Shown here piece by piece: positions 21,301 to 39,300 of a DNA stretch of 64,000 nt (the first letter of the stretch is position 1; every line of letters begins with the position of its first letter). A program made the translations under genes and the position numbers. The notes under the pieces were generated by a model. It worked only from the letters and a program-made list of their open reading frames with translations. It was not told the DNA's origin and did no database searches. This DNA comes from Hyperoplus lanceolatus (Eukaryota; Chordata; Actinopteri; Uranoscopiformes; Ammodytidae): the NCBI GenBank assembly GCA_026929865.2, contig CM049409.1, forward strand, positions 8,401,452 to 8,465,451. Direction: 5' to 3'.

Positions 21301-24300
21301 AAGCAGGGGTAATGCTGCATAAAAAGTGCTATCAACACCAAACACACATATATAGAACATAAAAAGAACATTTTATATTGCCTTGTTTTTTTAGCCAGGG
21401 TTTTATGAGAAGAACATTGTCATTTTCTGTTACGGTTTGAGTCGTTACATTACAAATCCTATATATTGTCTATAACACCTCTATCTGATTTGATGCAGCT
21501 TCTATGGAAGGTAATGAAAGACGAATGATCTTACCTCCATAAAGAACTCTCTGTTACTCGGCCCGAGTTGAAGTCGTAGTATTTTGTCAACATGAGGATC
21601 ACCTACAGAGCAGATCAAACAGATTACTAGCTTCCAAGGAGTGTGTATCATCAATTCCAAGAAACAGCAGTGATAAAGTGTCACATGGTGAAACAAAAGA
21701 GCTGAGACGTCCGTGCACATCTTTTTAAAGCTCCCTGACAGCTATACGGCTTTATTAAAAACCAAAAAGAACCTGTGACGGTGTGTCATCCCAATGCACT
21801 GCGTTTTTTCATAAAAAAGCCACACAACCTTGGACAAATTCGCTGGGAATAGGCCGATCACGTATGTATGTTATGATGCTTTTGAAGATTATAGCAAACA
21901 CGACCACTGGTTTAAAAAATAAATAAATAAAAAACTATGACTTAATGAATAAATAAATTGACGTGAAAATTCATTCCAGGCACAGAGAAACAGACCTCGT
22001 AAATATCTGGGCATCTTTTTTTGGTTAAGAGGATCATAAAAAGTGACAGTCCTATCCGTGGTTTACAATACAAAGGCCTTCACTTAATACACAGCTGTAG
22101 ATTTTCAATATGTCTTTTAAATTACCCCCCAGATGCTAATGGATGGCTCACTATGGACCTTTAATTTGAAGAGGAGCTATTTTCATGAGCAAACACCAGA
22201 ACCTAAATCAAAGCCTGTGTGTGTTTATTTGCATATAGTTACAGATGCATAAGGTCATGTTGACATACATCTAACTTTGTTTCCAGTGAGGCAATGATAC
22301 AAAGGAAAAAACCTGCAATTACTACAATAGCTTTTCAGATTTTTCGCAGTGATTCGTGGCATTTTATCAACTTACATCAGCCCTTTACACATAAGAACTG
22401 TTGTTCACGTTGTGCCCTTCACCCCGTATACACATTAATCGCTCAAGCAAAGCCCTGCCTGCACCGTGCAATCATAAAACCTGCGGATTATATAGCTCTC
22501 GTGGGAAGCCACACTGGGCATCTTGTTCAGCTTTTCACAGCAATCTTCTAATTATAAAGTCCTATGAGTGTTTGGGGTAACATTCCCTGTAACAAGTGAG
22601 GACTCCATCATGTAAACAAGAAATTTGAGCTTTTATAAAACCCTTGCACGCGCAGTTTTTTGTACACATTCCAAACAGCAGACAGACACATGCTAGGCTT
22701 GGGCTCAAATCAAACAAGTCGATCCTCCTTGTGTGTGCCAGATAAAAAGCCCACTCTTGAAACTGCTTCAGTGAAACAGAACGGTGACAGACACACACTG
22801 TGCACACATGACGCTCCTCAAGGTCACCTGTGTGCAGGTGACTGCAGCGTTTAGCGGTAAAAACAGATTCAAAAAACAACAGCACCCCAAATCCTTTCAA
22901 GCTAAATGAGTCAACACAGACTCTGCTTTATAAATACAAAACACAAGTCTTAAATATATGCTTCTATTAATTGATTTATTTAATTCCCAAAATGAAATCT
23001 AGTGAAGAATCCTTTCTATTACTGGGAAATCCAGTTCCTTATTAAGTACGCTCACTAACGTTGTATTATGTATATGTATGTATGTATATAGGGTTGCAAC
23101 TAACGATTATTTTTCGCTGTTGGTTTGGTTTATAAAACATCTAATATAATGTTGCTTATCACAATTTTCCAGAGCCTAAGGCAAGTTGTATAAATATATC
23201 CAGTTTTGTCTGAAATCCAAAACCCGAAAGATGTTCTATTTATAATGATATAGCAAAGAAGAGCTGCAAATTCGCACACATAAGGAGCTAGAAAGAGATA
23301 TTTTCTCAATTTCCACAAAAACTTGAACAATCAAACGAATGCTGTTTCCTACCATTTGCCTATTTGAGTTTTCCACTACCGCATGGGTAACACTTTACAA
23401 TAAGGTTACATTAATTAATGGGTAGTTAATGCTTAATAAGGTTTAACTAACCATTAGTTAACTGTTAACTAATGTGTCTAGTAAGCATTTACTAATGGTG
23501 TTCATGTTAACTATGGTATTAATTAATACATTATGTAATGTTTATAAATATCCTATATTAACCTTAGTTAACCCATTAATTAAGCATGAACCAACAGTTG
23601 ATTAATATAATAATAGGCATTAATTAACTGTTAACAAATGTAATTTTTGTAACATTACTTGAGCATAATTAACCATTTATTAATGCTCTTTGTGACCCTT
23701 ATTGTAAAGTGGGAACCATTTATCCATTAAGTAACACTTAATAAATGCACACCAGTGCTGAATAGGCATTACTGAAGCACACTTAACCATAATAGGCATT
23801 ACTTAAGTGTAATTAACCATTTACTAATGGACCTTGTGACCCTTATTGTAAAGTGAGAACCATTTCTCATGAATTAACACCTAATAAAGGCATACTAGTG
23901 CTGATTAAGCATCACTTAAGCATACTTAACCATTTCTTAATGTTATTTGTGACCCTTATTGTAAAGTGGGAACCATTCATCACTTGTTACACTTAATAAA
24001 TGCAAAATAGTGCTGAATAAGGATTACCTAAGTACAATCTCCATCAATCAACATTGCTCTTTGTGACCCGTGTACATTCTCTATAATAACAATATTAAAC
24101 ATACTAAAATATTTCCAACTGGAAATCAATTCATGACAACAATCTGTTATCAACACAATTCAGTCACAATTTAAAAAGAGAGAATTTTATTTTATTTAGA
24201 ATCTTTAGTTTTATTTGGAAACAAGGCTCTCACATTTGACATGAATACCGTCAAAGAACTCCAAAATAGTTTCTTCAACAAATTATATCCAGTTTAATGA

Positions 24301-36300: not shown

Positions 36301-39300
36301 TACCGTGTCACCCACACATAAGCCTCCTGTCTAAAATGATCGGGAAACCACCGTGTGTTTCGTGAGGGAGGCGGCGGCGCCAGAGATGTAGTTCCGTCTC
36401 TTCACGTCTAAACATACCAAGGCTCAAAGCTAGCTAGCTAGCGCCGCTTATTTTCTGTCACAGAAACCGTGGACTACATTTATTCTAAGGCTGGAGTACA
36501 CTATACTTCTCCTTTACTGTAATGTAAAATACAATGCAATGTAAAACTAAAGAAAAAATACGAGCACACTAAGTGACACATCTTCAATTCACTACGACCT
36601 ACTACTGCCTGCACGTAGATGCATTCCCGTTCGGTCAGCGTCCCCTTGCTACGTAATATGACGCGTTTGACGTAGGGGGTTAAAAAAAAGAACTTTGTAG
36701 GAGCTTAGCTCAAAACAGCCACTTTGATCTCGGAATAAACATTCTTATGTTTTGAAAAACAAAAAAAATCCTGCATATTATTTTTCAATGGGGATGTCCA
36801 TAAAAGATTATGTATACATCTAGGAATATTTTTAACTTCCAATACGCACTTTAAGCACGTAGCTCAGCTGCTGCTTTTACTGTCCAGGCACACATCCGTC
36901 TTTCTATCCTCCCAGTGGCCAGGATCCAGTAAAAAACGAGATCTTTAGGTGATTTATATGATCAATAATAGGCTATTGATAATCAACAATGGCTGTAGAG
37001 GGAATGCATGTATGTATGCAATGTATTTTCAACTTTGGGAAGGTGAAAATATGTTTGGAGACTTTACTTAAGAAAAATATTTCTTTACAAACCTTATTGA
37101 CATTAGGATTACCCACGTTTTTCAAGCACTTGAACTCGCCCAGCGATCAGCCAGCAAGAAAGAGGGTGTGTGTCTGGACAGTGAAGCAGCAGGCCAGCAG
37201 CTATGTGCTTTTTTCTCACAAAAGACCTGTGGTGGTTAATTACAGTATGCTGCCATTAGCCCAACAAAATGATTGGTGAGTTAACTAAGTTATTCGTGAG
37301 ATGATATAGTTGTGTGTGTATGTAAGAAATGAATAATGTGAAATATATTAGTGATGCAGCCTCCCGCTAGCATAGCACCGTTAGCATGAGGCTTGTGCTG
37401 GCTAGCTTCACAGGTAACTTTTAGCAGTAATTGTAGCAGTGGCTAAATAAAGTGAGTGTTTATAGACACCAAACCATATGTGAACACATGTAAGCGTTTT
37501 CCATATGCAAAGTGCATGTTGCTATTTCTTGCTAAAATGGGCTTAAGATGAGCATGTGTTGTGTAGAATGGTCATAGAGATGACATGTTTTTTGAATGAA
37601 AAAATAGTGTCAACTTGTTAAAGGTTCAGTGAGAATTGTATTTGATTAAGGTACCAAAGATATTTCAGTTAAGCAATGCAATGCATTATGTTATAATAAT
37701 AATACATAATGTGGAACCGTAATGCTATGCTATAATGATTTAGATAAAGGAAACAAAAATGCATCTGAACTTTTAACTGATTATTTAATTTTTTTCCATG
37801 TACATCAACTTGGTGATTAGACAAGATTCTTGGATTCCAGCCCAACTGCTTCATTTGGATTGGAGCACCCAGGCCTGGAGTGGCCAGCAAACCCAAGAAC
37901 TGGATCTAAAGAGAGCGAGAGATTATAAATGAGGGTCACCCCTCAACTGATCTTTCGAGTATAAATAAAGGTTAAATGAAATACATATGTGTTCATTCAA
38001 ATAACAATGATAGGGTCAGGTTAAACTAGTGTTTAGTCACAAGAGAGTGATCATTATTTTGTTTTATCTTCAGTCCATGATTAAAAATGGAACTGTTATG
38101 TTCTTTGTGTATTTTATTTTGTGTATACACTTCAAGGAAGAGAGTAGAAAATACATATTTACCTGTTAAACCTAACTGTTGAGTCAGTGTGTTTCACCAT
38201 TGCTGTTAGTAATCCATTTCCTCCTGTTTGTTACTTTCAGAGAAAATCATTAAACTGGATATAATTTGTTGAAGAAACTATTTTGGAGTTCTTTGACGGT
38301 ATTCATGTCAAATGTGAGAGCCGTGTTTCCAAATAAAACTAAAGATTCTAAATAAAATAAAATTTTCTTTCTTTTTCAAATTGCGACTGAATTGTGTTGA
38401 TAACAGATTGTTGTCATGAATTGATTTCCAGTTGGAAATATTTTAGTATGTTTAATATTGTTATTATAGAGAATGTACACGGGTCACAAAGAGCAATGTT
38501 GATTGATGGATTGTACTTAGGTAATCCTTATTCAGCACTATTTAGCATTTATTAAGTGTAACAAGTGATGAATGGTTCCCACTTTACAATAAGGGTCACA
38601 AATAACATTAAGAAATGGTTAATTATGCTTAAGTGATGCTTAATCAGCACTAGTATGCCTTTATTAGGTGTTAATTCATGAGAAATGGTTCTCACTTTAC
38701 AATAAGGGTCACAAAGTCCATTAGTAAATGGTTAATTACACTTAAGCAATGCCTATTCAGCACTGGTGTGCATTTATTAAGTGTTACTTAATGGATAAAT
38801 GGTTCCCACTTTACAATAAGGGTCACAAAGAGCATTAATAAATGGTTAATTATGCATAAGTAATGTTACAAAAATTACATTTGTTAACAGTTAATTAATG
38901 CTCATTAATCAACTGTTGGTTCAAGCTTAATTAATGGGTTAACTAAGGTTAATAAAGGATATTTATAAACATTACATAATGTAGTAATTAGTACCTTAGT
39001 TAACATGAACACCATTAGTAAATGCTTACTAGACACATTAGTTAACAGTTAACTAATGGTTAGTTAAACCTTATTAAGCATTAACTACCCATTAATTAAT
39101 GTACCCTTATTGTAAAGTGTTACCATTAAATCACCAACTTCATTGCAACGCCACACGTTTCCAAAGAACCTCTTGCTGTTAATTATGCGATGAATTTAAT
39201 AGTTTTGCTTTATGACCTAATTATTGCCCTCATTGTAAATGAGGGTTAGAAACTCTTGACTCTGGCTATTACTTTGTGCTGAATGCATGGAATCCTTTAT

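Follow-up and report, generated by a model that had tools for sequence, protein, structure and literature searches.

A probable non-autonomous foldback-type transposon, enlarged by nested insertions, in the fish Hyperoplus lanceolatus

There is a region of 15.7 kb on contig CM049409.1 of the Hyperoplus lanceolatus assembly (GCA_026929865.2) that is bounded by long inverted arms, and it raises the question of whether one transposon or two gave rise to it. The stretch that we analysed, called the window here, comprises the 64,000 nucleotides from position 8,401,452 to 8,465,451 of the forward strand, and all positions below are counted from its first letter. The initial annotation of the window considered a non-autonomous derivative of a large undescribed family, in the size range of giant DNA transposons, or alternatively two ordinary elements inserted head-to-head. 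We favour, with a probability of roughly 0.7, one old non-autonomous cut-and-paste DNA transposon of the foldback type, with terminal inverted repeats (TIRs) of about 2 kb and a length of about 8.2 kb before other elements were inserted into it. Coordinates are collected in Table 1.

The outermost 20 bases, GGTAACACTTTACAATAAGG, are identical at the two ends in inverted orientation, the ends read GGTAAC, and the similarity between the arms starts exactly there. A BLAST comparison of the window with itself yields two inverted blocks, the first pairing 23386-24929 with 39124-37618 (1,547 columns, 95.6%) and the second pairing 25531-25967 with 37623-37211 (446 columns, 82.7%). Both are also recovered by a repeat finder and MAFFT alignment, and a piecewise alignment gives 1,909 aligned positions, of which 66 are mismatched. 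The inverted arms are far beyond chance. The self-comparison thus bears out the initial annotation in that the arms mirror each other from the terminal 20-mer inward. The right end that it gave is correct, but the left end, which it placed at 23396, lies 10 bases further out, and its estimate of arms of over 2 kb is borderline, being reached only by the left arm with its insert included.

The inner boundary of the arms is less sharp than the outer one, with similarity dropping at 25967 and 37211. A mirror test with stricter scoring, consisting of 36 segment comparisons with 300 shuffles each, was passed in only three cases, namely by a stretch of 22 bp, by a palindrome of 69 bp and by the inverted ends of the segment 36855-37208. 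The 22-bp stretch (25995-26016 and 36833-36854) scores 39 against a shuffle maximum of 34, a score reached by none of the 300 shuffles, and has an E value of 0.002 against the whole window. This match may continue the mirror of the arms inward. The segment at 36855-37208 scores 47 against a shuffle maximum of 30 (0 of 300 shuffles) and is perhaps another nested element; the only hint of a shrunken remnant of it in the left arm comes from a permissive alignment that is not significant overall. The palindrome (26892-26960) is imperfect, with 58 of 69 positions paired, and it resides in the residual core of about 3.9 kb that is left between the arms when nested elements are set aside. A palindrome encompassing the whole core is not established, as a permissive alignment of 25968-27477 with 35713-37210 scores 434, where shuffles average 333 and reach a maximum of 479.

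Each arm is assembled from several modules. In the left arm, the outermost module of 342 bp has the terminal motif at one edge and a degenerate copy of it, in inverted orientation, at the opposite edge, and it resembles a miniature inverted-repeat transposable element (MITE). With DNA parameters this module folds at -55.9 kcal/mol, whereas its shuffles average -28.2 (z of -7.5; none of 100 shuffles is as good). Its mirror in the right arm folds at -93.1 kcal/mol with RNA parameters, a value that stands without a shuffle comparison. Beyond each terminal module there are two more inverted copies of the motif, and three subterminal units of about 113-144 bp are found in each arm, every one with an exact 14-bp piece of the terminus. 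When the units are delimited from this motif and compared pairwise, those at mirror positions pair best in 3 of 3 cases (0.991, 0.879 and 0.964, versus 0.736-0.857 for the 12 other pairs). Since each unit is closest to its mirror partner, the units probably multiplied before the last time that the arms became similar. A 30-bp tandem duplication near 23761 is found in the left arm only.

This architecture bears directly on the possibility that two ordinary elements of about 2 kb were inserted head-to-head, wherein the middle would be host DNA. By itself, the left terminal module forms a hairpin that is bordered on either side by end-like motifs, much like a solo MITE, and the right one mirrors it; moreover, Pfam recognised no family in the pieces of the middle that were scanned. 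In the left arm taken alone there is also a repeat of 6 bp (ATGGGT, at 23383-23388 and again at 25970-25975), which is matched by 40 of 1,000 random site pairs; it is one outcome among four choices of arm and edge, and the terminal motif itself supplies three of its six bases. All other choices give 3 to 4 bp, and the right arm alone yields 3 or 4 bp, which 857 and 450 of 1,000 random pairs equal, such that no convincing target duplication exists for either arm. However, the arms share 1.6 kb beyond the terminal module, and a motif scan at their inner ends found no terminal motif there, while the inner ends are also unlike each other. Because the inner ends lack the motif and the mirror units pair in all three cases, we favour a single long-TIR element and regard a head-to-head pair as unlikely. 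A single element accounts jointly for the ends, the units and the paired divergence. Of the two readings in the initial annotation, the single non-autonomous element is therefore the better one, as the terminal motif that both ends share also indicates. Out of a length of about 8.2 kb, its TIRs take up about 1.9-2.0 kb on either side, and they contain three internal tandem units per arm; long TIRs and internal tandem repeats are both traits of foldback elements.

Similarity between the arms does fall toward the centre, as first described, but not by smooth decay. The best single break in the mismatch rate lies at 25606 (log-likelihood gain 28.4 in the piecewise alignment), outside of which 28 of 1,579 positions are mismatched (1.8%) and inside of which 38 of 330 are (11.5%). 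None of 200 permutations, which treat alignment positions as independent, reaches this step. A further break inside the outer part lacks significance, since 58 of 200 permutations reach it. We therefore replaced an even fading of similarity with a step at 25606. Arms that were identical at insertion and drifted independently should show even divergence, and the step thus suggests that gene conversion between the arms reset their outer part. Alternatively, the inner edge might already have been divergent in the parent copy.

There are several described systems with which the element can be compared. Tetris of Drosophila virilis is a non-autonomous foldback element whose TIRs consist of a flanking domain, an array of tandem units in which part of this flank recurs, and an inner domain, and whose termini are common to a MITE (PMC4079207). 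The present element likewise has a terminal module, units of 113-144 bp with a terminal-like motif, and a further arm of 1.6 kb, which is a likeness of architecture. In contrast, Tetris units are about 220 bp long and its target duplications span 8-10 bp, whereas the units here are about 113-144 bp, no clear duplication is found, and the host is a different one. Galileo, a Drosophila element of the P superfamily, has long TIRs that are internally repetitive in some subfamilies and longest in non-autonomous copies (PMC3573991, PMC3688188), and its tandem TIR units hold further binding sites for the THAP domain of the transposase (PMC3688188). Long TIRs with tandem units in a non-autonomous copy are shared features, but the TIRs described for Galileo reach about 1.25 kb and are accompanied by a 7-bp duplication, as against about 2 kb here and no 7-bp duplication found.

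Two other comparisons are looser. ISL2EU of the PHIS superfamily has TIRs of 6-259 bp that usually start with GG, an AT target duplication, and autonomous copies of about 4.8 kb (PMC4482050). The ends studied here also start with GG and have AT beside them if a one-base offset is permitted, but the arms are about 2 kb long, and neither a transposase nor a YqaJ domain is detected in the scanned pieces. Angel elements of zebrafish are DNA transposons whose long inverted repeats can form stem-loops (PMC3636048). The outer 342-bp module is similar to them in shape and might conceivably be akin to them, although the element in its entirety greatly exceeds a MITE in size. The build of the element (terminal hairpin, tandem units with terminal-like motifs, inner arm and a middle without detected coding content) matches that of Tetris and Galileo, and the element is a probable new member of the foldback kind. 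More tentatively, and with less confidence than we place in a single element as such, it might represent an undescribed teleost foldback family with modular arms (terminal hairpin MITE, end-motif units and inner arm) that are kept alike by conversion, and whose termini also drive short MITEs.

From the binding sites in the tandem units of Galileo and the architecture of Tetris, we infer that the element was most likely mobilised in trans. A transposase from another copy or another family would bind the terminal motif as well as the copies of it that the subterminal units carry, pair both ends and move the element. Subsequently, the arms would exchange sequence by gene conversion, which would keep the outer 1.6 kb or so of aligned positions near-identical while the inner edge drifts. 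Both the binding and the order of these events are conjectural.

To the left of the element the flanking bases read GCATG, and to its right they read ATTAAA. If three bases of slop are permitted per end, exact repeats extend no further than CAT (or AT, at an offset of one base), and AT stands beside both ends only if one extra G is allowed on the left. Repeats of at least 3 bp are given by 49% of random site pairs and repeats of at least 2 bp by 90%, and no imperfect flank repeat of at least 5 bp with one mismatch or at least 7 bp with two is found. Because the flank repeats are at chance level, no superfamily can be read from the target site. The P superfamily with Galileo (7 bp), hAT (8 bp) and Mutator (8-10 bp, the criterion applied to Tetris in PMC4079207) were each considered for the whole element and rejected, as the respective target duplication is absent and none has a Pfam match among 50 scanned pieces, although an old duplication of the P or Mutator type could have decayed.

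An exact match to the terminal 20-mer is found neither in viral_contigs nor in genome_contigs, which are collections of viral and prokaryotic sequences. Its first 18 bases are absent from viral_contigs and occur nine times in genome_contigs, always in bacteria (five times in Chryseobacterium), where about seven occurrences are estimated to arise by chance. In the open-access literature, text searches with the terminal sequence brought up no paper on transposons.

The lack of a clear target duplication is also what would be expected if a segment had been duplicated in place in inverted orientation, without transposition. Long inverted repeats can arise in this manner by template switching or repair. 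However, the two outer edges coincide with one and the same base of a motif that recurs within the arms, and between the flanks (22386-23385 and 39125-40124) there is no similarity beyond a 12-bp match with an E value of 0.12. Fold-back copying, we infer, should leave an edge at the centre and not at both outer ends, and we consider this explanation quite improbable. About equally improbable is a recombinant of two copies of a long-TIR family at a chromosomal inversion breakpoint, as is known for Galileo, which would explain why the flanks are unmatched beyond 3 bp. Chimeric Galileo copies are described as having non-matching 7-bp flanks and unusually divergent TIRs (PMC3573991), whereas the outer arms here differ by only 1.8%, and old single insertions also lose their duplications.

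The presumed single long-TIR element appears to have been filled extensively by other transposons. Nested elements were located by eye and then by script. Five nested elements, plus a sixth located inside one of them, have exact target duplications of 4 or 8 bp, and another has TA flanks. The duplication is 8 bp in five cases, which is the length usual for hAT elements. A range of 5-8 bp is given for hAT in the literature (PMC4482050). Partial copies of the nested hAT-like element at 27478-30530 are found at 56301-56893 and 55827-56311; as a whole, this second copy (55827-56893) is 89.5-89.8% alike and partial, and it lacks the inner insertion. Counted with one duplication each, the nested elements total 7,499 bp and leave 8,240 bp, or about 350 bp less if 36855-37208 is also an insert. 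Thus, the length of 15.7 kb is real, but nearly half of it is made up of nested elements, each bounded by its own target duplication or by TA, so that the element was probably not giant to begin with, and we discard the giant transposon that was first envisaged.

This reduction also affects the notion of a decayed Polinton/Maverick or another giant self-replicating transposon, which the long terminal repeats and a present length near 15-20 kb might otherwise recommend. Polintons end in AG, create 6-bp target duplications, and encode a protein-primed polymerase, an integrase and a capsid protein. The element is about 8.2 kb without its nested insertions, it ends in GGTAAC and not AG, no 6-bp duplication is present (although an old one could have decayed), and none of these proteins is matched in the 50 pieces. 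We therefore rejected this candidate, which has only a slim chance of being correct.

The Pfam scan covered 50 pieces of open reading frames (ORFs). Thirty of them, scanned with E up to 1, came from the arms, the core and the nested elements. The other 20 were taken from a set of 36 additional pieces of at least 42 amino acids, which lie in the left outer arm or the residual core, and were scanned with E up to 0.1. Of 87 pieces of at least 50 amino acids in the element, 48 were scanned (one clipped at a segment edge) and 39 left out, and exons below about 42 amino acids would escape. No piece reaches the cut-off of any family, and there is no transposase, YqaJ, polymerase, integrase or capsid match. 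Six matches lie below their curated cut-offs (E values of 0.1 for IPU_b_solenoid, 0.19 for Myb_CC_LHEQLE, 0.084 for DUF6459, 0.34 for NPR2, 0.086 for YacG and 0.034 for Castor1_N). As a control, eight ORFs from the same window were scanned, of which three reach the cut-off, two of them Tc1-like (20267-20881 and 19844-20263) and one a piece of a reverse transcriptase (62959-63426). The five that fail include neighbours of this last piece. Because such a scan can miss pieces derived from transposons, the absence of a transposase is likely but not proven, and the initial annotation, which saw none, agrees with the 50 pieces scanned.

No stop-to-stop frame of the residual core is of striking length. 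The longest (26390-26749, 120 amino acids) has no match in Pfam, nor in the PDB at E up to 1; frames in the remaining residual segments are within the expected lengths. One ORF piece has no relative in viral_contigs. There is no Rfam match at gathering score in 22000-41000, and a scan of the window with ARAGORN in its bacterial setting finds no tRNA. A 41-bp stretch of the residual core (26235-26275) is shared in the same orientation, with 38 of 41 positions identical, with the interior of the hAT-like element at 31800-32179 (31856-31896), and this may be a patch copied during repair. Just outside of the TA-flanked element, 31085-31105 of the residual core nearly matches 53766-53786 (21 bp with one mismatch, E of 0.002).

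Several observations weigh against a single non-autonomous element. There is no target duplication beyond 3 bp for the element as a whole, and the sequences compared show no further copy of the arms together with the core. The low divergence of the outer arms is odd beside so many nested insertions, unless conversion has acted or the insertions are older than the move. In addition, the 120-amino-acid frame exceeds most shuffles (8 of 200 are as long or longer), and the Pfam scan is not exhaustive, with only 3 of 8 control ORFs reaching the cut-off.

Table 1. Features of the long-armed element and of the insertions within it
Feature	Position	Strand	Remarks
Whole element as present	23386..39124	.	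15,739 bp; identical inverted terminal 20-mers
Left arm	23386..25967	+	2,582 bp with insert, ~1,975 bp without; aligned to reverse complement of right arm
Right arm	37211..39124	-	1,914 bp; alignment to left arm
Possible inward extension of left arm	25995..26016	+	22 bp; partner 36833-36854, 21/22 bases
Outermost hairpin-forming MITE-like module, left arm	23386..23727	+	342 bp; DNA fold
Outermost hairpin-forming module, right arm	38783..39124	-	mirror of left module
Subterminal repeat units, left arm	23653..24038	+	exact motif CACTTTACAATAAG three times, minus strand, at 23698, 23842 and 23955
Subterminal repeat units, right arm	38515..38865	+	period 113; exact motifs at 38580, 38693 and 38807
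Nested element	24930..25532	.	603 bp, left arm only; TTAA target duplication; empty site in right arm
Nested hAT-like element	27478..30530	.	3,053 bp as present; 8-bp target duplication CCAATAAA
hAT-like element inside 27478-30530	28048..30039	.	1,992 bp; 8-bp target duplication GAAATAAA
Nested element	31107..31717	.	ends GGCCTTTCACACC, 13/14 terminal bases mirrored; TA flanks only (weak target duplication)
Nested hAT-like element	31800..32179	.	380 bp; 8-bp target duplication CATGTAAG
Nested hAT-like element	32286..34021	.	1,736 bp; 8-bp target duplication GGTGGCAG
Nested hAT-like element	34627..35704	.	1,078 bp; 8-bp target duplication CTCTATAG
Stretch with own inverted ends, inner edge of right arm	36855..37208	.	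354 bp; inverted ends ~50 bp

Other features are found elsewhere in the window. A Tc1-like element at 19467-21201 has unusually long inverted ends (348 columns, 92.8%) and Pfam matches to HTH_Tnp_Tc3_2 and DDE_3, and its transposase frame is split by an in-frame stop. Frames at 61698-63916 resemble pieces of a retrotransposon of the long interspersed nuclear element (LINE) type, of which one of three scanned (62959-63426) matches reverse transcriptase. There is also an open frame of 359 amino acids at 51840-52919 that is surrounded by higher G+C and matches no Pfam family at E up to 0.01; it may be a host exon that runs into a simple CA repeat.

As a single copy, the element mainly shows that a seemingly giant transposon can be an ordinary-sized one that was filled by insertions. 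The step in arm divergence would also let this copy be used to gauge conversion between inverted repeats that lie some 13 kb apart. Among the Drosophila foldback elements, Galileo is described as having generated chromosomal inversions, and Tetris as having seeded satellite DNA (PMC4079207). If further copies share the build described here, the family would be a fish counterpart to these elements.

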